In this document: piece by piece, positions 49,079 through 60,541 of the stretch
Position numbering within the stretch: position 1 is the first letter of the stretch
Layout: every line of letters starts with the position of its first letter
Assembly (NCBI RefSeq): GCF_005843985.1
Contig: NZ_CP040463.1
Span: 1,228,001-1,292,000 of the forward strand
Origin: Caminibacter mediatlanticus TB-2
GTDB taxonomy: Bacteria; Campylobacterota; Campylobacteria; Campylobacterales; Nautiliaceae
Direction: 5' to 3'
DNA length: 64,000 nucleotides
The notes under the pieces: generated by a model
Told to the model about the DNA's origin: nothing
What the model saw: only the letters and a program-made list of their open reading frames with translations
Databases searched by the model: none
Position numbers and translations under genes: made by a program

Positions 49079-50074
49079 ATGTCTCTTGATAAAGTATTTG
49101 ATATTGTAATTATTGGAGCAGGGCCAGGTGGTATAGCAGCAGCAATCGAAGCAAAATTAAAAGGGATAGAAAAAGTCCTTATTTTAGAAAAAGCTGACAA
49201 TCATTTAGATATGATAAGAAAATTTTATAAACCAGGCAAAAGAGTAGACAAAGATTGGCAAGGTAAAAAGTTTGAATTTATCGGAAATGTAACATTTGAA
49301 GAGTGTAGTAAAGAAGAGTTTTTAGACCAAATGGATAAAAAAATAAAAGATGCAGGTATTGAAGATAAATTTAAATATAACCATCACGTATATGCAGTAG
49401 AAAAAAATAAAGATGGTATTTTTGAAATTGGAGCTGACCACGAACTTGGCGTAATTCAAGCAAAAAAAGCAATAATTGCAATTGGAAGAATGGGCAAACC
49501 AAACAAACCTGCTTATAAATTCCCTCCAAAAATAAGACCAAAATTAAACTTTAACCTTGATAAAGTTAAGCCAAACGAAAAAGTATTAGTAGTAGGTGGT
49601 GGTGATACAGCAGGTGAATATGCATATGGCCTTGTTGATATGAATATTGGATGTGATGTTACACTAAATTATAGAAGAGCTGAAATTACAAGAATGAACC
49701 CTACAAACAAAGAAATTGTTGAGAGATACTTTAAGGAAGGTAAAATTAAACCTAAACTTGGAGTTGATATAGAAAATGTTGAAGCAGTTGAAGTTGATGG
49801 AGAATATAAAGTTAAAGTAAATTATAAAGATGGAACAAGTGAAATTTTTGATAGAGTAGTTTATGCACTTGGTGGAACAAGTCCAGTTGATTTTCTAAAA
49901 AACAGTGGAATTGAACTTAATGAATGGGGCGAGCCAAATTGTAATCCTGAAACACTTGAAACAAATATAGAAGGGCTATACACAATAGGAGATGTTGTAA
50001 CAAGTGCTGGAAGTATTGCCCTTGCATTTAATCATGCATACCAAGCAATAAACGATATAGCTAAAAAGCTATAA
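49079..50074 (+). CDS. FAD/NAD(P)-dependent thioredoxin-reductase-like oxidoreductase
   Basis: A 331-residue flavoprotein with an FAD site (FDIVIIGAGPGGIAAAIEAKLKG, about 8-30), an NAD(P) site (VLVVGGGDTAGEYAYGL, about 169-185) and a C-terminal GLYTIGDVVTSAGSIALAFNHAYQA. It lacks the CxxC redox pair of thioredoxin reductase, so acts on another substrate or partner. YpdA-like and ferredoxin-NADP reductase-like proteins share this layout. The gene is single, converging with fxsA by a 6-bp overlap. Confidence 0.82.
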   Translation: MSLDKVFDIVIIGAGPGGIAAAIEAKLKGIEKVLILEKADNHLDMIRKFYKPGKRVDKDWQGKKFEFIGNVTFEECSKEEFLDQMDKKIKDAGIEDKFKYNHHVYAVEKNKDGIFEIGADHELGVIQAKKAIIAIGRMGKPNKPAYKFPPKIRPKLNFNLDKVKPNEKVLVVGGGDTAGEYAYGLVDMNIGCDVTLNYRRAEITRMNPTNKEIVERYFKEGKIKPKLGVDIENVEAVEVDGEYKVKVNYKDGTSEIFDRVVYALGGTSPVDFLKNSGIELNEWGEPNCNPETLETNIEGLYTIGDVVTSAGSIALAFNHAYQAINDIAKKL

Positions 50075-50488
50075 TTTTTTTTCTATTTCCTCTATTATTT
50101 CTACATCAATAATTTCATCATTATCAAAATTATTTTTATGATAGTAAAATTCTGTTTTTGTTTTAAAAAGTTTTTTGCCAATAAATCTTGCAAATGGTTC
50201 AAATAAAAATAAAACTCCTAAAATATCACTAAACACTCCTGGAATTATTAATAAAAAAGCACCTATTAATTTAAAAAGCCCACTTGCTAAAAACTCCTCT
50301 TGTGTAATTTCTCTATGAATTACTTTTTGAATATTATTAGCAATAGAAATATGCAATGTCCTAAGTATAAAAACACCAACAACAGCACTAAAAATAACCT
50401 CTAAAAAGAGGCCAAAAGGAGTAAATAATTTAGCAAATTCATAACTAAATAAAATTTCTAAAAAAAGATAAATCAAAAAATAAATCAT
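50069..50488 (-). CDS. fxsA: FxsA-family membrane protein
   Basis: A 139-residue FxsA-like inner-membrane protein with two or three hydrophobic helices (about 2-18, 24-41, 70-95) and the GLFKLIGAFLLIIPGVFSDILGVLFLF motif (about 70-96). E. coli FxsA affects phage exclusion, but most members have no known role. It is the last gene of the hydrogenase-fumarate reductase run, 9 bp after the SdhE-like gene. Confidence 0.85.
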   Translation of the reverse strand: MIYFLIYLFLEILFSYEFAKLFTPFGLFLEVIFSAVVGVFILRTLHISIANNIQKVIHREITQEEFLASGLFKLIGAFLLIIPGVFSDILGVLFLFEPFARFIGKKLFKTKTEFYYHKNNFDNDEIIDVEIIEEIEKKL

Positions 50489-50497
50489 CTATTTCCT

Positions 50498-51358
50498 TTA
50501 AAATACTGCCTCCACTACATGATGGTCTAAACCTAATTCTTTTGGAGATATTCCAAAAGCAAGACCAAGTAGTTGTGGCAGATGTAATACAGGAATTTTA
50601 ACATCTTTTTTTGCCTCTTTTAATACACTCTTTTGTTTAACATCTAAATTTAAATGACAAAGTGGACATGGTGTTACCATGACTTCTGCTCCATTATCTA
50701 CTGCATCAAGTAATGAATTTCTTGTTAATGCTTCACTTAATGGAGTATTTTGTAAATCTACATGAAATCCACAACATTTTGTTTTTCTTTCATACTCAAC
50801 TGGCTCACCAAAACATAACTTTATTAAACTCTCAATTGCTGTTGGTTTATATGGATTTTCATTTAATGTTACTCCATCTTTTGTTTTAGATGGTCTTATT
50901 ATATGACACCCATAAAATGGAGCTATTTTTTTATTAAGAGGTTTTTTAATATGTTTTGATATCTCTTCAAGTCCAATATCTTCAAGTAAAGCATATAAAA
51001 AGTGTTGGACTTTTGTATTGCCTGTATATTTATATCCAACCTCATCTAATTTTTGATTTACTTTTTCTTTATACTCATCATTTTTTAGCCTATTTTGAGT
51101 ATTTTCAAGCATTAATTGACAAGTATTACATAAAGTTACCATTTTTAGGCCTCTTTTTTCAGCAAGACAAATATTTCTTGCATTTAAAACATCACTTAAA
51201 AACTCATTAAAATCTTGCAAATGACTTGCCCCACAACAACTTGCTTCATCTAAAACTTCTATTTCTATTCCAAGCTTATTTGCTACTGCAAGAGTTGATT
51301 TTAAAAGTTCTGGTGTTGATTCTTTTGCAGTACATCCAGTATATAATGCATATTTCAT
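50498..51358 (-). CDS. sdhE: Heterodisulfide-reductase-B-like subunit of fumarate reductase (SdhE/MfrE type)
   Basis: A 286-residue protein with two CCG domains: EASCCGASHLQDF with YTGCTAKE in the first, and KTKCCGFHVDL with FYGCHIIRPS and TPCPLC in the second. These bind noncubane [4Fe-4S] clusters in HdrB and in SdhE/MfrE. In the SdhABE (methylmenaquinol:fumarate reductase) enzymes of Campylobacter and Wolinella this subunit replaces the usual cytochrome b anchor and touches the quinone. It follows the iron-sulfur subunit by 1 bp. There is no transmembrane helix. Confidence 0.88.
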   Translation of the reverse strand: MKYALYTGCTAKESTPELLKSTLAVANKLGIEIEVLDEASCCGASHLQDFNEFLSDVLNARNICLAEKRGLKMVTLCNTCQLMLENTQNRLKNDEYKEKVNQKLDEVGYKYTGNTKVQHFLYALLEDIGLEEISKHIKKPLNKKIAPFYGCHIIRPSKTKDGVTLNENPYKPTAIESLIKLCFGEPVEYERKTKCCGFHVDLQNTPLSEALTRNSLLDAVDNGAEVMVTPCPLCHLNLDVKQKSVLKEAKKDVKIPVLHLPQLLGLAFGISPKELGLDHHVVEAVF

Positions 51359-51359
51359 A

Positions 51360-52331
51360 TTATCCCTTTAATTCATGAGTTTGAGAAATTTCAATTAGTT
51401 TTTGAATTTCTTCAAGTCCTTCACTTTTTGGCATTTGCCATGGAAGTTTTATTTTTCCTTTTTTAAACATTGCAATAGCTTCTGGCATATGTCTTACAAC
51501 ATTTACTCCCTCACTATATAAAACAAGCATCCCTTCATCTAAAATTCCATGTTTTTTAATAGAATGCACAAACCCTTCTGCGTGTTTAGTAGCAACATTT
51601 TTCTTAGCAACCCCTTCTTCAAAAATTTCATTATGAAGATGTGTAATTTTTGTAAATGGGTCTACATCTTTTGGACAAACTTCAATACAAGCTTGACACT
51701 TCACACAATCCCAAACACCACTTCCTAACTCATCAACAATTTCAAGTCTCTCTTTTTTAGCCCTATCTCTAACATCAGCTACAAATTTATATGCTTTTGC
51801 TAAGGCCATTGGACCTATAAAATCTCTATTTTCTGATTTACTCTCACACTCATAATAACAACACCCACATGCAATACAATTTTCTGCTTCTTCAAGTTTT
51901 TCAACTTCTTTTGGAGTTACAAGGTGTTCCATTTTAGGATGTTCGTCAATTGCAGCAATTAAATATGGCTTAATTCTTTTTTCATCTTCCCAAAAGTCTC
52001 TTTTATCAATTACTAAGTCTTTAATAATTTGAGGCACTTTAAGTGATAGTGGTTCAATTAAAAGAGTAGGACCAAATTTTTCTACCATATCTTTTACTCT
52101 TGTTTTACAAGCAAGCACATTTTTTTTATTAACTTTAATCCCACAACTTCCACAAATTCCATGCCTACAACTTCTTCTATATGTTAAACTCCCATCAAAT
52201 TTCCATTTTATTTTATCTAAAACATCTAAAACAACTGCACTCTCATCAACTTCTAATTCATATGTCTTATAATATGGTTTTGAATCTACCTCTTTATTAA
52301 ATCTTAAAACTTTTACTCTAATTTTCATCAT
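51360..52331 (-). CDS. sdhB: Fumarate reductase/succinate dehydrogenase iron-sulfur subunit
   Basis: A 323-residue FrdB/SdhB, longer than the usual about 240. The [2Fe-2S] site is RRSCRHGICGSCGIKVN...VLAC (about 53-76). The two cluster motifs are CIACGCCYYEC (about 153-163) and CVKCQACIEVCPKDVDP (about 215-231). The C-terminal extension past about 245 is found in SdhABE-type enzymes and may contact SdhE. It stands between sdhA and sdhE with gaps of 6 and 1 bp. Confidence 0.94.
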   Translation of the reverse strand: MMKIRVKVLRFNKEVDSKPYYKTYELEVDESAVVLDVLDKIKWKFDGSLTYRRSCRHGICGSCGIKVNKKNVLACKTRVKDMVEKFGPTLLIEPLSLKVPQIIKDLVIDKRDFWEDEKRIKPYLIAAIDEHPKMEHLVTPKEVEKLEEAENCIACGCCYYECESKSENRDFIGPMALAKAYKFVADVRDRAKKERLEIVDELGSGVWDCVKCQACIEVCPKDVDPFTKITHLHNEIFEEGVAKKNVATKHAEGFVHSIKKHGILDEGMLVLYSEGVNVVRHMPEAIAMFKKGKIKLPWQMPKSEGLEEIQKLIEISQTHELKG

Positions 52332-52337
52332 AGCCCC

Positions 52338-54047
52338 TTAATATTTTCTCTCTTGTGGCTCAAATTTTGTAATTTTAACATCACCATATTCAACTTTTAC
52401 CTCTCCATTCTCATCCATATATGCATATGTATGTTTTAAATAGTTTTCATCATCTCTTTTTGGATAATCTTCTCTAAAATGAGCCCCACGAGACTCTTTT
52501 CTATTTAAAGCACCTTCAATTATAAATGCTGAATAATCAAGCATATGCCCAAGTTCAATTGCTTCTTGTAAATCGGTATTATATGTTTTTGATTTATCAT
52601 CAAGTTTTATGTTTTTAAATCTTTCTCTTAAGTTTTTAATCTCTTCTTTTGCTTCAAGTAAAGTTTTTTCTTCTCTAAATACTCCAACTTTTGTAGTCAT
52701 CATTTCTTGTAATTCTTCTCTAATATTAGCTACTCTCTCACTCCCATTTGAATTTAAAATACCTTCTACCTCATTTAACATAAAATCTGCATCTTCTTTT
52801 TTTGCTTCTTTTAAGCTTAGTGAATCTAAGTCTTTATTAATTTGCCATCCAACCCATCTTCCAAAAAAGAGTGCTTCAAGCAATGAATTAGCTCCAAGTC
52901 TATTTGCTCCATGCACACTCACACAAGCACACTCACCTGCTGCATAAAGTCCTTCTGTAAGTTCATTTGGCGATTTTTTAACATGACCATTTATATCAAC
53001 AGGAATTCCTCCCATAGAATAATGAGCAGTAGCTGAAATTAAAATAGGCTCTTTTGCCATATCTCTTCCTAAAAATGTCAAAGCCAAATCTCTTAACTCT
53101 GGCAATCTCTCTTTTATTTTTTCTTCTCCAAGATGAGTTAAATCAAGATAAACTGCAAATTTATCCTCTTTTGCACCTCTTCCTTCAAGTATCTCTTTCA
53201 TAATAGCACGACTAACAACATCTCTTGGAGCAAGCTCCATCTTTTCAGGTGCATACTTTTTCATAAATCTCTCACCCTCACTATTTAAAAGATGACCACC
53301 CTCACCTCTTGCTGCTTCACTCATCAAAATACCACTTCCTGCAAGTCCTGTTGGATGAAATTGCACAAACTCCATATCTTCAAGAGGAAGTCCTTTTCGG
53401 GCAAAAATACTAAGCCCATCTCCTGTATTTGCGTGAGCATTTGAATTTATCTTAAATGCTCTTGCATATCCTCCTGTTGCAAACATAACTGCTTTTGCAT
53501 TAAAAATAGCAGGTGTTGTATCTCTTAGATTATATGCAACAACTCCATATGCTTTATTACCATCATATAATAAATCTGCTACATACCACTCATCTAAAAT
53601 ATTAACACCTTCTTTTACGCATTGTTCGTAAATTGCATTAAGCATTACAAGACCTGTCCTATCTTTTGAAAAACAAGCCCTCGGTCTGCTTTGACCTCCA
53701 AAAGGTCTTTGAGCAATTCTTCCATCTTCTCTTCTACTAAAAACACACCCTAAATGCTCAATCCATCTTATAGTCTCTGGGGCTTTACTACACATTAGCT
53801 CAACTGCATCTTGGTCTGCTAAATAATCACTACCTTTAATTGTATCAAACATATGAAGTTCAACATCATCATCTTCACTTAATGCTGCATTAACTCCACC
53901 TTGTGCTGCACCTGAGTGTGAACGAAGTGGATGAAGTTTTGTTAAAACTGTAACTTTTTTACCACTTTTTACTAATTCTCTTGCAGCAGCAAGTCCAGCA
54001 AGACCAGCTCCTACTATTACTACATCACTCTCATAAATTGGTATCAT
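52338..54047 (-). CDS. sdhA: Fumarate reductase/succinate dehydrogenase flavoprotein (SdhA/MfrA type)
   Basis: A 569-residue flavoprotein. The FAD site is [18 protein letters not shown]; the covalent FAD histidine is in [11 protein letters not shown]; catalytic residues lie in [42 protein letters not shown] and [12 protein letters not shown]. The N-terminus begins [15 protein letters not shown] with no twin-arginine signal, unlike the exported MfrA of Campylobacter and Wolinella, so the active site should face the cytoplasm. It follows the GltD-like gene with 1 bp between. In a reductive TCA cycle it would reduce fumarate. Confidence 0.94.
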
Positions 54048-54048
54048 T

Positions 54049-55476
54049 TTATCCCCTTATCATTTTAGCAATTGCTTTTGCAGCTTCTCTTCCATCTCTA
54101 ACAGCAGTAACAACTAAATCAGCACCTCTTATTGCATCGCCTCCTGCAAATACTTTTTCATTTGTAGTTTGAAATTTTTCATTTACAACAGGACATCCCC
54201 ACTTATCTGTTTCAATTCCAGCATGTTCGTACCATGGAAATTTAACATTATCAAATCCTAATGCAAAAATTATTATATCACAATCAATTTCAAATTCACT
54301 TCCCTCAACTACTCTAACTCTTCTTCTACCTCTCTCATCAGGTTCAGTAAGTTCTGTTTTATTACATACAATTCCTACAACCTCATTATTTTCATTAACT
54401 TTTATCTCTTTTGGTGCTGCATAGAAAATAAATTTCACTCCCTCTTCTTTTGCATTTTCTACTTCTTTTTTACTTCCTGGCATATTCGCTTCATCTCTTC
54501 TATATACACAATAAACCTCTTTTGCTCCACTTCTTACACTTGTCCTTACAGCATCCATAGCACTATCACCACCACCTAAAACAACTACTTTTTTACCTCT
54601 TAAAAAGCAATCATCAAAATCTTTAAATACTCTTTTTTGAGCGTGAATTAATACATCCATAACATGATATACACCTTTTGCTTCTTCATTTGGAATACCA
54701 GCACCTCTTCCACTTGGTGCTCCAACTCCAATAAATACTGCATCGTAATTATCAACAATCTCTTCAAACTCTTTTTCTGTAAGTACTGGATGATTTAAAA
54801 TAAATTTAGCCCCAGCTTCTTCCATCCATTTAACTCTTTTTAAAATTCTATCTTTTGGAAGTTTAAAATTTGGAATTCCATACATTAAAAGCCCACCAGG
54901 TCTATCATGTTTGTCATAAATATCTACATTAACTCCTTCTCTTAAAAGAAAAGTAGCACAACTAAGCCCAGCTGGACCTGCCCCAATTACAGCAACTTTA
55001 CCTTTTTTTTCTTTATCCTCTCCATAATATGGTTTAAATCCTTCTTCAAATCCTTTTTCAGAAATATAAACTTCTAATGCTCCAATTGTAACACTCCCAT
55101 GAGGTGTTTTATGAATAGTACAACTCCCTTGACATAAATTATCGTGAGGACAAATTCTTCCCATAATCTCTGGAAAAGGCGAAGTTTCATTACTTAATTC
55201 AAATGCAGTTTTTAAATTTCCATGTTTTAAAGCCTTAATCCATTGAGGAATTTTGTTTGTTAAAGGACAACCTGTCCTACAAAATGGAAAATCTTTATTT
55301 GGAAAATCTCTAAGTAAATCAATAGGACAAGTTATACATCTTAAAGCTTGGTCTAATGCTTCTTTATCTTCAAATTCATGATATACTGGGTGAAAATCTT
55401 TAACTCTCTCCTCAGCTGGTCTTTTTCTTTGAATTTTTCTTGGAATTTTATGAAAATGTCTTCTTGGCATATTCAC
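54049..55476 (-). CDS. GltD/NfnB-like NADPH-dependent oxidoreductase
   Basis: A 475-residue FAD/NADPH protein of the glutamate synthase small-subunit family. The N-terminal Fe-S cysteines are [11 protein letters not shown]...FCRTGCPL and [14 protein letters not shown] binds at [17 protein letters not shown] and NADPH at [16 protein letters not shown], and the C-terminus has [25 protein letters not shown]. No GltB large subunit is beside it. Instead it lies between hypA (4-bp overlap) and sdhA (1-bp gap), so it may pass electrons between NADPH and these iron-sulfur partners. True glutamate synthase function is still possible if gltB lies elsewhere. Confidence 0.85.
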
Positions 55477-55808
55477 TCCTTTATTTCAATATATTCTATA
55501 TATAGTTCATTTCCTGCTATAAGTTTTGTATTTTCGCTTTTGCAATTTGGACATCTAAAATCAAACCCTCTTATTTCAAACTCTTTTTTACAATCTTCAC
55601 AAAAAATTTTTTTTTCAATCTCAACTATCTCCATCTTAGCTTCACTACATATAGTATTTTCTTTAAATACCTCAAAACACTCTTTTAAAAAATATGGTTC
55701 AATTCCACTTAATTTTCCAACTTTTACTACTATTTTAGAGACTTTTTTATTATTTGCATATTTTTCAACTAACTTTACTAACGATTCAACTACGCTCATT
55801 TCATGCAT
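55473..55808 (-). CDS. hypA: Hydrogenase nickel-incorporation protein HypA
   Basis: A 111-residue nickel chaperone. It starts MHEMSVVESLVKLVE with the nickel-binding His2, and has the zinc site CEDCKKEFEIRG...RCPNCKSEN (about 73-95). HypA loads Ni into the [NiFe] active site with HypB. Placement right after the hydrogenase and CooF-like genes suggests dedicated maturation, as in some coo clusters. It overlaps its neighbours by 8 and 4 bp. Confidence 0.95.
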   Translation of the reverse strand: MHEMSVVESLVKLVEKYANNKKVSKIVVKVGKLSGIEPYFLKECFEVFKENTICSEAKMEIVEIEKKIFCEDCKKEFEIRGFDFRCPNCKSENTKLIAGNELYIEYIEIKE

Positions 55809-56319
55809 GAGCGTTTAATCTCTCAAAAGTAGCTTGTTGTTTTCTTCTTCTATATTCAACATAATCAATCAACTCAATTGCATGAGTTGGACAAATCTCA
55901 ACACACGCTTGTGTATTTTCAACTCCTCCACATAAATCACACTTCATTGCAATAAGCCCTGATACATTATCATAAGGACTCTCAGCCATAACAACAGCCC
56001 CAAATGGACAAACTATCGCACAGCTTCTACATCCAATACAATCTTCTTCATAAATTTTTACATAATCCCCTTCATACTTAATAATATCAATTGGACACGC
56101 TTCAACACATGGAGCATTTTCACATTGCATACATTGAATTGGCGCTGTTAAATCATTTAGTTTTACAACTTCATTTCTATGAACCATCTTTTCACCAGCT
56201 AACGCTCTTTCATACGCTTCTTCAATATCAATTCCCTCATGACTTGCAGCACATGCAAGCTCACAATTTAAACATCCAATACATTTTTTTGGGTCTGCGA
56301 ATATAAATTTATTTGCCAT
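55801..56319 (-). CDS. CooF/HycB-like polyferredoxin
   Basis: A 172-residue protein with four [4Fe-4S] motifs: CIGCLNCELACAAS (13-26), CMQCENAPCVEACP, CIGCRSCAIVCPFGA and CDLCGG...CVEICPTHA. The opening KFIFADPKKCIGCLNCELAC and the long insert (EEAYERALAGEKMVHRNEVV) match CooF, which carries electrons from CO dehydrogenase to the Coo hydrogenase in carboxydotrophs. No CO dehydrogenase gene is in this window, so another donor such as formate dehydrogenase is possible. It lies 12 bp after the hydrogenase large subunit. Confidence 0.88.
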   Translation of the reverse strand: MANKFIFADPKKCIGCLNCELACAASHEGIDIEEAYERALAGEKMVHRNEVVKLNDLTAPIQCMQCENAPCVEACPIDIIKYEGDYVKIYEEDCIGCRSCAIVCPFGAVVMAESPYDNVSGLIAMKCDLCGGVENTQACVEICPTHAIELIDYVEYRRRKQQATFERLNAHA

Positions 56320-56331
56320 AATTTCCTCCTT

Positions 56332-57408
56332 TTATCTATCTGTACAAGATACACATGGGTCTATACTATTTAAAATCAAAACAACATCACTTGCTCTATT
56401 ACCTTTTATCATCTCCTCTAATGCTTGAAAATTCATATAAGTAGGAACTCTCCATCTCATTCTTTTTGGTTTTTGACCTCCATCAGTTTTAACATAATAA
56501 ATTAACTCTCCTCTTGGAGCCTCAGTCCTAACAGTTGCTTCACCTGCTGGAATATGAGGTCTTTTTTCTAAATGAATAGGACCAGATGGTAAATTATTAA
56601 TTGCATTTTTTAAAATCTTAATTGCATTTTTTATATCATACCATCTAACTTTCATTCTTGAATAGACATCTCCATCGCTTTCTAAATCAACTCTAACTTC
56701 TAACTCATCATACGCTGCATATGGAGCTTTAACTCTTACATCATTATTAATTCCACTTCCCCTTGCCACAGGACCACTAACTCCAAATTCAAGTGCTTGT
56801 TGTTTAGTTAAAACACCAATACCTTTTGTTTTTTTAATTTTTTCACTATTACAAAATCTCTCAAATAATTTATCAACTAATGGTTCTATTTTTTCTAAAC
56901 TATTTAAAATAAATTCACTCTTTTGTTTATCTAAATTATACTTAACCCCACCAATTGTAACGGCACTTAAATCCATTCTATTACCCCAAATTGTCTCTTT
57001 TAAATCTTGCATAATCTCTCTTGTATCCATTGTATCTCTCATTAACTCATAATCATGAACTAAATGTGCAAGCATTGAGAGATTAAACATATTTGAAGCA
57101 ATTCTTTTAACCTCATCTGCAATTACTCTTAAATAATCTGCCCTTTTACTAACTTCAATTTCAGCAATTTTTTCTAATGCTAAACAGTAAGAAAAAGGAT
57201 GGTTATTACTACATAAAGCACAAAGTCTCTCAGTTAAAATTAAATTTTGAAAAAAGTTTTTTTGCATAGTCAATGCTTCAAGTCCTCTATGGACAAACCC
57301 ATTAACAATTTCAACATCCCTTACAATTTCATTATCATCTACATCTAATTTAAAATAAATTGGCTCTTCAAGAGATGCTAAAAAAGGTCCTATATTAATC
57401 TTTTTCAT
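56332..57408 (-). CDS. [NiFe]-hydrogenase large subunit, group 4 (CooH/EchE type)
   Basis: The 358-residue catalytic subunit. Two CxxC pairs hold the NiFe site: ERLCALCSNNH (C63, C66) and DPCVSCTDR (C352, C355). Both are complete, so this is a hydrogenase and not a NuoD-like homologue. The protein ends at CVSCTDR with no C-terminal peptide, so no processing protease would be needed, as reported for CooH and EchE. It overlaps the NuoC-like gene by 14 bp. Direction (H2 uptake or release) cannot be told from sequence. Confidence 0.93.
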   Translation of the reverse strand: MKKINIGPFLASLEEPIYFKLDVDDNEIVRDVEIVNGFVHRGLEALTMQKNFFQNLILTERLCALCSNNHPFSYCLALEKIAEIEVSKRADYLRVIADEVKRIASNMFNLSMLAHLVHDYELMRDTMDTREIMQDLKETIWGNRMDLSAVTIGGVKYNLDKQKSEFILNSLEKIEPLVDKLFERFCNSEKIKKTKGIGVLTKQQALEFGVSGPVARGSGINNDVRVKAPYAAYDELEVRVDLESDGDVYSRMKVRWYDIKNAIKILKNAINNLPSGPIHLEKRPHIPAGEATVRTEAPRGELIYYVKTDGGQKPKRMRWRVPTYMNFQALEEMIKGNRASDVVLILNSIDPCVSCTDR

Positions 57409-57865
57409 TATTTTCCTTTTGGATTTTATGCCACATTTTTGAGGTTAAATTACCACTCATAGCTTTTGAGAGTGGAATGAACCTTGCTAAAACCTCTTCA
57501 TCAATAGAATCATCTAAAAATAGCCTTTTTGGGTTTGGATGATTAATAGGCTCAATCCCATACATTTCTTTAAATTCTCTCTCAGCCCAAGAAGCAGATT
57601 TTAAAATGGGAGTTATAGAATCAACTCTTTTGTCTTCAATATCAACTTCAATATTTATTAAAACACCATCAACATCAAAATGATATACAAGTCTTGGTAT
57701 TTCTTCTTTATAAGCAGTAATAATTACACATCTACCATTTAAATTTTTTATAGTTTTAGCAACATCTAAAATTTTATACTTATCAATTTTTGCCCAATAT
57801 TCAATATTTCCTTTTTTATCTTTAACTTCTCTTAATTCAAAATCAAATGCTTCTTTTATAGACAT
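57395..57865 (-). CDS. NuoC-like hydrogenase subunit (CooU/EchD type)
   Basis: A 156-residue subunit related to the 30-kDa subunit of complex I. It has ITPILKSASWAEREFKEMYGIEPINHPNPKRLFLDD (about 96-131), the signature of NuoC/CooU proteins. It holds no cofactor and helps dock the large and small subunits. It overlaps the ferredoxin gene by 10 bp and the large-subunit gene by 14 bp, keeping the Coo gene order X-U-H. Confidence 0.9.
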   Translation of the reverse strand: MSIKEAFDFELREVKDKKGNIEYWAKIDKYKILDVAKTIKNLNGRCVIITAYKEEIPRLVYHFDVDGVLINIEVDIEDKRVDSITPILKSASWAEREFKEMYGIEPINHPNPKRLFLDDSIDEEVLARFIPLSKAMSGNLTSKMWHKIQKENNEKD

Positions 57866-58278
57866 AAATGCAACCTTTCAAATGCAACTTTTTTCCTACA
57901 TTCAGGACAAAAATTTGCTAATTCTTCTATGTTATCACTTATGTGAGGATAAGATTTTTTAAGTAAAGAAATAGAAGGTTTTACAAATTTTTCTCCACAC
58001 ATTTTGCACTCTATTTTTTTGATAATAGCTTTTGTAATGAATTTGTATTTATCTTCTTGTAAATTAACTGTGTGATAATCATTTGTAAGTTTTATAGCCC
58101 CTGTTGGACAAAAAAATTCACAATTTGCACAAAAACAGCAAGTGTTATACCAAGTTGTATGGATAAAGCTACTCTCATCCTCTGTAATATGAATAGCCCC
58201 TGATGGACAAACTTCCTCACAAGTTGCACAAGCAGTACATAAATTAGCATCTACTTTTAACTTACCTCTAAATCTCAT
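57856..58278 (-). CDS. Two-cluster ferredoxin hydrogenase subunit (CooX/EchF type)
   Basis: A 140-residue NuoI-like ferredoxin. Two [4Fe-4S] motifs are visible: CTACATCEEVCPSGA (about 15-29) and CCFCANCEFFCPTGA (about 47-61). The C-terminal half also carries four cysteines in two CxxC pairs (CKMCGEKF and CPECRKK), possibly a zinc site, which is more than a plain EchF has. It overlaps the small-subunit gene by 11 or so bases. Confidence 0.88.
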   Translation of the reverse strand: MRFRGKLKVDANLCTACATCEEVCPSGAIHITEDESSFIHTTWYNTCCFCANCEFFCPTGAIKLTNDYHTVNLQEDKYKFITKAIIKKIECKMCGEKFVKPSISLLKKSYPHISDNIEELANFCPECRKKVAFERLHLCL

Positions 58279-58684
58279 TATTTTTCCTTTTTAATATCTC
58301 GATTGCTGTTTTTACTCCTTCAAGAATTGCTTGTGGTCTTGGAGGACATCCAGCAACATTAACATCCACATTTACATAACTATCCACGGGCCCTAATATA
58401 GGATAAGAGTCTCTAAAAATTCCACAAGTAACACTACATGTCCCAAGTGAAATTACAACATAAGGTTTTTTATGATTTTTAATTACTTCTTTTAAAAAAG
58501 GAAGACTTCTCGCAGTAACAGGTCCTGTTATCATAAAAATATCAGCATCTTCACTTGTTTCTATATATTCACAACCAAGTTTTTGTAAATCAAACCTACT
58601 TGACATAACAGATGCTGCAATTTCAACATCGCATCCATTACAACTACCAGTATTGATTCTAAATATTTTAGGATTACTACTCAT
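58268..58684 (-). CDS. [NiFe]-hydrogenase small subunit (CooL/EchC type, NuoB-like)
   Basis: A 138-residue NuoB-like subunit carrying one [4Fe-4S] cluster near the NiFe site. The cluster cysteines are in NTGSCNGCDVE, GTCSVTCGIF and VAGCPPRPQAILEG. I place the start at ATG 58684, 5 nt after AAGGA; an ATG two codons earlier (58690) lies directly against the Shine-Dalgarno. This is the first gene of the operon. Typical coo and ech operons have two membrane-subunit genes ahead of this one; here the next gene upstream is proS. Confidence 0.92.
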   Translation of the reverse strand: MSSNPKIFRINTGSCNGCDVEIAASVMSSRFDLQKLGCEYIETSEDADIFMITGPVTARSLPFLKEVIKNHKKPYVVISLGTCSVTCGIFRDSYPILGPVDSYVNVDVNVAGCPPRPQAILEGVKTAIEILKRKNNEI

Positions 58685-58715
58685 CTCCATCCTTAAAATT
58701 AAACTAACAAGTAAT

Positions 58716-58797
58716 TTTATACCTTCTATAAAAAAATAAGTAACAATTCAGTAACAAAAAATAAGAGGAAAAAAAGTTTGTAGAATTAAGTAACAAC
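58716..58797 (-). promoter_or_regulatory. Hydrogenase operon promoter with tandem TTGTTAC repeats
   Basis: Reading the minus strand, TTGTTAC occurs at 58797-58791 (with T-T-G-T-T-A-C-T), at 58757-58751 and at 58746-58740. The last two form a direct repeat with 4-bp spacer, an 11-bp period. TATAAA (58721-58716) follows as a possible -10, so the inner repeat lies at the -35 region. Such 7-4-7 direct repeats are typical of OmpR/PhoB-type response regulators. The regulator is unknown. Confidence 0.5.
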
Positions 58798-58816
58798 AAA
58801 AGATTAAAGGAGTATT

Positions 58817-60541
58817 TTAGTCTTTTTTTAATTTTTCTTTTAAAAAATCAAAAACTTCATTACTCTTAACTTCTATTTTTTCATCACTTCTTCTATCTCT
58901 AATTTCTACTATTCCATCTTTTAATTTTTTACCAACAATTACTGCATATGGAAATCCAAGAAGTTCAAAATCATTAATTTTAACTCCAAATCTCTCTTTT
59001 CTATCATCAAGTAATACTTTTATATTTTCATTTTTTAATTTTTCATATAAATTTTCAGCAAATTTAACTTGGTTTTCTTTTTTAACATCTCCAATAATTA
59101 TATCCACAACAAATGGAGCTATCTCTTTTGGCCAAATAATACCTTTATCATCATGATTTTGCTCAATAGCAGCAGCAATTAATCTACTAACACCAATACC
59201 ATAACATCCCATAATAAATGGCTTAGCTTTTCCATTTTCATCAAGAAAAGTTGCATTCATAGGTTTAGAATAAACATCTCCAAGTTTAAAAATATGTCCT
59301 ACTTCTATTCCTTTTGTAATTTTAAGTGGCTTTCCACATTTAGGACACAAATCTCCTTCTTTTACAGCTGCAATATCTCTATAAATTGTTAAATTTCCAA
59401 GTAAATTTGCATCAAGAAGTCCAGCTCCTTTTATATGATAATCTTTTTTATTAGCTCCACATACAAGCTCCTCAGCCATTCTTAAATCATCATCAATAAC
59501 ATACTTAATATTACTTGGTATTCCAAATGGTCCTATAAATCCTGGCACAAGCCCAGCTTTTTTTATTTCTTCTTCACTTGCATCAGCTAAATCAATTGCC
59601 CCTATTGCATTTTTTGCTTTTGTCTCTTCTAATGTATCAGTTCCTCTAACAAAAAATACAACTATCTCTTCTTTATCATCAAAAATAGCTTTTTTAACAA
59701 CAGCTTTTATACTAAAAAATGGGTCAATTCCTAAAAATTCGCAAACTTCTTCAATTGTTTTTTTATTAGGAGTATAAACTTCTTCTATTGTTTCAGTCTT
59801 AATTGGATTTTCTTTTTTAATAGTTTTTCTTTTTGCTACTTCAATATTAGCTGCATAATCACACTTACTGCATACTACAATATCATCTTCACCTGTATTT
59901 GCTAAAACCATAAACTCTTTACTTCCACTTCCACCAATAGCACCACTATCAGCCTCAACTACTCTAAAATCAAGCCCCATTTTAGAAAATATTTTTTTAT
60001 AAGTCTCTTCCATTAAATTAAATTCTCTATCTAAATCTTCTTCATCTTTATGAAATGAATAAGCATCTTTCATAATAAATTCACGACCTCTAAGCAGTCC
60101 AAATCTTGGTCTTGCTTCATCTCTAAATTTTAAATTTATTTGATAAAGATTTATTGGAAGTTGTTTATAACTTTTTACATAACTTCTAACTAAATCAACA
60201 ACACTTTCTTCATTAGTAGGAGATAATACAAATTTATTTCCTTTTCTATCTTCAATTCTTAAAAGTTCATCTCCATATTTTTTAGCCCTTCCTGTCTCTT
60301 CCCAAAGTTCATATGGAGTTATGAAACTAAGCATTACTTCTTGTGCTCCTGAATTATCCATCTCTTTTTTAATAATATCTCTTATGTTATCTAAAACTAT
60401 TTTTCCAAGAGGAGCAAAATCGTATATTCCAGCTGCTACTTGTTTTATATATCCACCTCTTATTAAATAGATATGACTTGGAGTTACTGCATCTTTTGGT
60501 GCTTCTTTTAGTGTATAACAAAATAATCTTGAAAATCTCAT
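58817..60541 (-). CDS. proS: Proline--tRNA ligase
   Basis: A 574-residue class II aminoacyl-tRNA synthetase of the bacterial type with an inserted editing domain (about 230-390). Motif 2 is in LKFRDEARPRFGLLRGREFIMKDAYSFH (about 136-163), motif 3 in MGCYGIGVSRLIAAAIEQ (about 442-459), followed by the anticodon-binding domain (VVDIIIGDVKKENQVKF). It overlaps the S4-domain gene as ATGA. Confidence 0.97.
   Translation of the reverse strand: MRFSRLFCYTLKEAPKDAVTPSHIYLIRGGYIKQVAAGIYDFAPLGKIVLDNIRDIIKKEMDNSGAQEVMLSFITPYELWEETGRAKKYGDELLRIEDRKGNKFVLSPTNEESVVDLVRSYVKSYKQLPINLYQINLKFRDEARPRFGLLRGREFIMKDAYSFHKDEEDLDREFNLMEETYKKIFSKMGLDFRVVEADSGAIGGSGSKEFMVLANTGEDDIVVCSKCDYAANIEVAKRKTIKKENPIKTETIEEVYTPNKKTIEEVCEFLGIDPFFSIKAVVKKAIFDDKEEIVVFFVRGTDTLEETKAKNAIGAIDLADASEEEIKKAGLVPGFIGPFGIPSNIKYVIDDDLRMAEELVCGANKKDYHIKGAGLLDANLLGNLTIYRDIAAVKEGDLCPKCGKPLKITKGIEVGHIFKLGDVYSKPMNATFLDENGKAKPFIMGCYGIGVSRLIAAAIEQNHDDKGIIWPKEIAPFVVDIIIGDVKKENQVKFAENLYEKLKNENIKVLLDDRKERFGVKINDFELLGFPYAVIVGKKLKDGIVEIRDRRSDEKIEVKSNEVFDFLKEKLKKD

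Follow-up and report, generated by a model that had tools for sequence, protein, structure and literature searches.

A Coo-type group 4 [NiFe]-hydrogenase operon without a membrane arm in Caminibacter mediatlanticus: a probable soluble, NADP-linked enzyme

Described relatives of the operon

Group 4 [NiFe]-hydrogenases are regarded as membrane-bound ion pumps and as kin of the ancestral form of respiratory complex I. The CO-induced CooMKLXUH enzymes of this group in Rhodospirillum, Carboxydothermus and Desulfovibrio have four catalytic and electron-transfer subunits that match, in order and kind, those encoded in the 64,000-nucleotide stretch of Caminibacter mediatlanticus TB-2 DNA analysed here (the window; positions 1228001-1292000 of a complete, single-contig genome of 1,685,887 bp). 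Unlike these systems, the window encodes no membrane subunits with them, and its genome contains no match above cut-off to the CO dehydrogenase (CooS) model TIGR01702; on that ground we rejected CO metabolism as the role of the operon.

Campbell 2009 described a full cooMKLXUHF set in Nautilia profundicola and only CooLH, an incomplete operon, in C. mediatlanticus (PMC2628731). The Nautiliaceae CooMKLXUHF operons, Hyd-3 of Nautilia PV-1 among them (PMC10092268), are orthologous to that of the window through F, HypA, GltD and SdhABE, with CooH 63-69% identical, but they have CooM, CooK, an N-terminal helix in CooX and a small subunit of membrane type, all of which the window is without.

A missing membrane arm is not new as such, since Kruse 2017 found the ech cluster of Sulfurospirillum multivorans to be without membrane subunit genes, terming this remarkable; large-subunit transcripts of that cluster were negligible and non-functionality was deemed possible (PMC5357620). 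Five of six Ech-like subunits were later detected in the proteome of S. cavolei (Kruse 2018, PMC6242987). Sulfurospirillum EchEDFC (SMUL_1307-1310 in S. multivorans) shares with the window the order L-X-U-H-F-HypA-GltD, the absence of membrane genes and a small-subunit signature described below, at about 55-62% identity in CooL and CooH; it differs in that the window has an F-HypA-GltD segment of Nautiliaceae type with SdhABE after it. The passages of Kruse 2017 on this cluster do not discuss an NADPH module (PMC5357620), and the conservation of such a module appears to be new with respect to the open-licence papers searched.

Two further groups of enzymes bear on the electron acceptor. Soluble NAD(P)-linked group 3 hydrogenases (Hox, sulfhydrogenases) resemble the enzyme proposed below in the reaction that they carry out in the cytoplasm, between H2 and NAD(P)+, whereas the large subunit in the window is of the group 4/complex I type and its putative diaphorase is HydN plus a GltD-like protein rather than HoxFU or HydBG; NCBIfam models of group 3 hydrogenases gave only about 31 bits with the window's proteins, against cut-offs of 700-880, which places them outside group 3. 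AegA/YgfT and the small chain of NADPH-dependent glutamate synthase share their NADPH site motif with the window's GltD; the N-terminal half of AegA resembles F and its C-terminal half GltD, which in the window are two separate proteins adjoining hydrogenase genes.

Core genes, downstream genes and the missing membrane arm

The core consists of four open reading frames on the minus strand whose neighbouring ends overlap: a CooL-like small subunit (58268-58690, 140 aa), a CooX-like ferredoxin subunit with two [4Fe-4S] clusters (57856-58278, 140 aa), a CooU or NuoC-like subunit (57395-57865, 156 aa) and the large subunit CooH (56332-57408, 358 aa). Their positions and Pfam matches (Oxidored_q6, Fer4, Complex1_30kDa and Complex1_49kDa/NiFeSe_Hases, respectively) agree with the first-pass annotation, which had read the order small subunit, ferredoxin, NuoC-like subunit, large subunit as CooL-X-U-H. 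It had also taken all metal-binding cysteines to be present, and both CxxC nickel motifs of CooH (RLCALCSNNH and DPCVSCTDR, the latter forming a C-terminus without extension) are indeed intact, as are the CNGC and GCPP motifs of CooL, in which the proximal [4Fe-4S] ligands are retained. The large-subunit matches, PF00346 and PF00374, are those of the complex I 49-kDa type, and CooH is closer to Coo than to Ech enzymes (63-69% identity to Nautiliaceae CooH versus 37-41% to Ech large subunits). By its large subunit and gene order we class the core as a Coo type group 4 [NiFe]-hydrogenase; with each subunit fitting its own family and orthologs arranged in the same order, the operon is, on sequence grounds, far above chance.

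The operon had initially been delimited at 56332-58690, which is correct for the core but not for its end, as it continues on the minus strand to about 50498 with intergenic distances of -14 to +12 bp. F (55801-56319) is a CooF/HydN-like electron carrier whose 16 cysteines, enough for four [4Fe-4S] clusters, are invariant across 23 sequences; it is followed by the nickel metallochaperone HypA (55473-55808) and a GltD-like FAD/Fe-S NADPH oxidoreductase (54049-55476). The latter has Rossmann folds, matches PF14691 (Fer4_20), PF07992 and TIGR01318 (518 bits, above the cut-off of 483), and carries the YRRD...MPGS motif of the NADPH-dependent glutamate synthase small chain, which is also its best solved relative, with NfnI alpha close behind; its eight cysteines and NADPH-type YRR motif are kept in all 24 sequences (cysteine invariance being counted over 23-24). 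A flavoprotein of the SdhA/FrdA type (52338-54047), an iron-sulfur subunit SdhB/FrdB (51360-52331) and an SdhE or HdrB-like CCG-domain subunit (50498-51358) complete the operon. No protein of the operon has a convincing transmembrane segment; the single score over threshold, in F, corresponds to a cysteine cluster motif. An fxsA-like gene (50069-50488) comes after sdhE in the window, whereas five of the six relatives have it between proS and cooM, indicating that the locus has been rearranged as well as shortened.

Directly upstream of cooL, where membrane genes would be expected, lies proS (58817-60541), as the first-pass annotation had observed. The intervening gap (58691-58816) is 126 bp, and in six relatives cooM and cooK, about 4.4 kb together, precede cooL. 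A tblastn search of the window found no cooM or cooK remnant, and we rejected a recent deletion scar on this result. Nor is there an ortholog of either elsewhere in the complete genome, as searched with profiles built from the relatives and with PF00146 and PF00361: the CooK profile gave 73 and 45 bits, compared with 615-635 bits in CooK-bearing genomes, and the CooM profile at best 125 bits, at the Ech, Hyc and Nuo loci. The three NuoH-like and six NuoL/M/N-like genes of the genome are confined to these loci (at about 750 kb, 1557 kb and 530 kb, respectively). The earlier suggestion that the membrane part might be encoded elsewhere thus failed, the genome-wide search for CooK-, CooM-, NuoH- and NuoL-type genes returning only Ech, Hyc and Nuo subunits. 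A Hyc/Hyf-type cluster at 1548000-1564000 of the genome lies beside formate dehydrogenase-like and formate transporter-like genes and is likely to encode a formate hydrogenlyase.

Changes in two core subunits accompany this absence. The window's CooX starts at the residue where a conserved N-terminal segment (MSGFLKIAIRNLLKGP...) of the other six ends; this amphipathic helix, nearly identical in all six orthologs from operons with cooMK, falls in a region aligned with MbhN of the Pyrococcus membrane-bound hydrogenase. In CooL, the residues that membrane-bound forms have as S-P, Y-D-x-x-R and P-G-C are missing: S6, Y33, R37, G44 and P113 (numbering of the window's CooL) are shared by 11-12 of 12 membrane-type small subunits (six Coo, four of Ech type, and those of Azospirillum and Butyrivibrio), and all 11 membrane-less ones, the window's included, differ at these positions. 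The NuoB segments that match these positions presumably face the NuoH side in complex I. We found these signature residues nowhere in the open-licence papers searched, to the extent that their text could be consulted, and they appear to be new.

Membrane-less relatives and the history of the operon

The operon is present in seven of 21 Nautiliaceae genomes, the window's included, and its order from cooL to sdhE is identical in all seven. The other six, one of which we take to be N. profundicola Am-H, have cooM and cooK directly before cooL, encoding proteins of about 1160 aa with 27 TM-like segments and of 319 aa with 8, respectively; the window is the exception within the family in missing both. 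A scan of genome contigs with the window's CooH returned one Nautiliaceae MAG only. The six membrane-bound orthologs are 94-97% identical in CooL, 82% in CooU and 90% in CooH, and their identities to the window are 56%, 56% and about 66%; for SdhA, used as a control, the corresponding values are 88% and 84%. Within these six, cooK and cooM of one genome (G018; L052, L053) group with those of another, G012, though G018 is congeneric with N. profundicola, which suggests that membrane genes were exchanged between genera; since these trees conflict with other genes, exchange in the cooMK region of the operon is plausible.

Searching 397 Campylobacterota genomes with a CooL profile, we found 17 further genomes, from five families other than Nautiliaceae, in which L-X-U-H, HypA and GltD occur in one order without cooMK beside them; F was called in 16 of the 17 loci, and in the remaining one (L097) an overlapping reading frame had displaced it in the ORF list. 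The window matches this membrane-less set in its L-X-U-H-F-HypA-GltD order and lack of membrane genes. None of the 17 genomes contains a CooK ortholog anywhere, the best matches staying below 81 bits. Thirteen of them form clade B, a single genus that we take to be Sulfurospirillum (including S. deleyianum, S. barnesii and S. multivorans), and the other four, each from a different family, form clade A. In the clade A loci (L093-L096) CooL and CooX form one fusion protein of about 293 aa with CooX as its C-terminal part, so that CooX has no free N-terminal membrane helix. A cysteine-containing reading frame of 93-99 aa is conserved directly before this fusion (L093:8865-9164, L095:8517-8798, L096:9113-9397); the one we examined has no Pfam match. 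One Sulfurospirillum-type genome has a CooL reading frame of 295 aa (L102:9388-10275). Two genomes of the Sulfurospirillum type have CO dehydrogenase above the cut-off (G071:C1:1973517-1975394 and G123:C12:51687-53564), away from the membrane-less coo-like operon and with a CooK-like gene, probably of Hyf, some 4-5 kb distant; strain SCADC, unlike these two, is reportedly described with CO dehydrogenase adjacency.

Phylogenies of the two halves of the operon disagree. In the F-HypA-GltD tree the window falls inside Nautiliaceae (100/99), and the data reject its union with clade A (p-AU 0.0013). For CooL plus CooH with outgroups (group 4 enzymes that are distant and have membrane subunits, the only matches of a plasmid search, none of them a Coo enzyme of Rhodospirillum, Carboxydothermus or Desulfovibrio), the membrane-less sequences all group together (96/96), and among them the window joins clade A (99/96). 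The operon thus looks like a mosaic by these trees, with CooL and CooH allied to membrane-less forms and F-HypA-GltD to Nautiliaceae, and we favour a history in which a membrane-less allele replaced its catalytic half. Such a mosaic structure did not come up in the open-licence papers searched, as far as their accessible text goes, and is apparently new.

Alternatively, and compatibly with the soluble enzyme proposed below, cooMK could have been lost vertically while CooL and CooH converged on membrane-less forms, a history that would be consistent with the Nautiliaceae type of F-HypA-GltD, with the length of the window's L/H branch (0.39 substitutions per site versus 0.02-0.09 for the membrane-bound orthologs) and with the four-protein LXUH tree without outgroup, which does not reject Nautiliaceae monophyly (p-AU 0.277). 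The CooL plus CooH data with outgroups, however, reject Nautiliaceae as one group (p-AU 0.015), and do so also after removal of the 27 signature columns (p-AU 0.0035), when the pairing of the window with clade A stays (100/99) and the wider membrane-less group, that is, the join with Sulfurospirillum, is no longer resolved. Vertical loss is therefore a possible history, yet a rather doubtful one.

Proposed function

The reading that best explains these observations, to which we assign a probability of about 0.68, is that the operon encodes a soluble, cytoplasmic, NADP-linked, Coo type group 4 [NiFe]-hydrogenase that does not pump ions. Its solubility, already offered as an option by the first-pass annotation, is well supported by comparison: six orthologous Nautiliaceae operons have both CooM and CooK and the window's complete genome has neither, the CooX helix is lost, the small-subunit residues are changed, and 17 other membrane-less gene sets exist. 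That annotation had the core right and missed downstream F, GltD and SdhABE, the cooMK-bearing sister operons and the published precedents. Electrons from H2 would leave the NiFe site in CooH by way of the proximal cluster in CooL, cross the two CooX clusters to F with its four clusters, and go from there to the GltD-like flavoprotein, which would reduce NADP+; the whole path may also run in reverse. Without CooM and CooK, the H2 reaction could not couple to ion translocation. By textbook redox potentials, reduction of NADP+ by H2 is downhill at high H2, so no pump is needed and an uncoupled reaction would be feasible. In the reductive TCA cycle, the SdhABE proteins next door may draw on reducing power to reduce fumarate.

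NADP+ as acceptor is what we infer from GltD, whose link to the hydrogenase is genetic, so that F could serve other acceptors; the formation of a complex, its direction and its activity are likewise suggested by gene content and order. For the membrane-bound Hyd-3 of Nautilia PV-1, NADPH formation has been proposed because an NADPH-binding subunit appears co-expressed (PMC10092268). On a soluble group 4 class or an NADH-dependent fumarate reductase, the open-licence literature, as far as its text was accessible, held nothing decisive. The long L/H branch of the window and the negligible large-subunit transcripts in S. multivorans (PMC5357620) count against our reading.

The same genes could instead form a soluble H2:fumarate oxidoreductase, in which electrons run from the core through F and GltD to SdhABE in one complex, or are bifurcated between NADP+ and fumarate, NADPH not being the main product. 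The gaps of 1-6 bp that separate SdhABE from GltD and from one another, the co-location of these genes in all seven Nautiliaceae operons and the HdrB-like nature of SdhE, of a family found in hydrogenase-heterodisulfide reductase complexes, are consistent with this; but SdhABE adjoins the membrane-bound version too, and membrane-less loci outside Nautiliaceae keep F-HypA-GltD without SdhABE directly attached (L095 alone among them encodes it, at a distance of a few kb), which makes such an enzyme improbable.

That the operon is a decaying, functionless relic, with cooMK deleted and the remainder being lost, is very unlikely. L, U and H do diverge faster than their neighbours (L is 56% identical to relatives that are 95% alike, SdhA 84% compared with 88%), and transcripts of the S. 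multivorans homolog are negligible (PMC5357620); against this, all reading frames and ligands are intact after long divergence, the tight operon is retained with hypA, 17 more genomes from five other families have conserved the membrane-less set, and proteins of that set have been detected in S. cavolei (PMC6242987). It is also very unlikely that the CooLXUH core borrows EchAB, Hyc or Nuo membrane subunits, for which the three NuoH-like and six NuoL/M/N-like genes supply candidates, as all of these are found in separate loci alongside catalytic subunits of their own, CooH is only 37-39% identical to Ech, and the CooX helix and small-subunit residues of membrane forms are lost.

We suggest, tentatively, that Campylobacterota hold a distinct class of soluble, NADP-reducing hydrogenase that arose from the ion-pumping group 4 family, and that in Nautiliaceae the catalytic half of one operon was swapped between membrane-bound and soluble forms with the NADPH and fumarate modules left in place; complex I-type modules would then have been taken apart again by evolution. 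Six genomes of one family have this operon with a membrane arm and a seventh has it without, the remaining genes standing in the same order; this natural pair makes it possible to ask by which subunits and residues the chemistry of H2 is tied to the pumping of ions. Campbell 2009 did not find a route to NAD(P)H through the pentose phosphate pathway in N. profundicola and had recourse to reverse electron transport as a proposal (PMC2628731); the soluble enzyme would offer autotrophs a likely route from H2 to NADPH.
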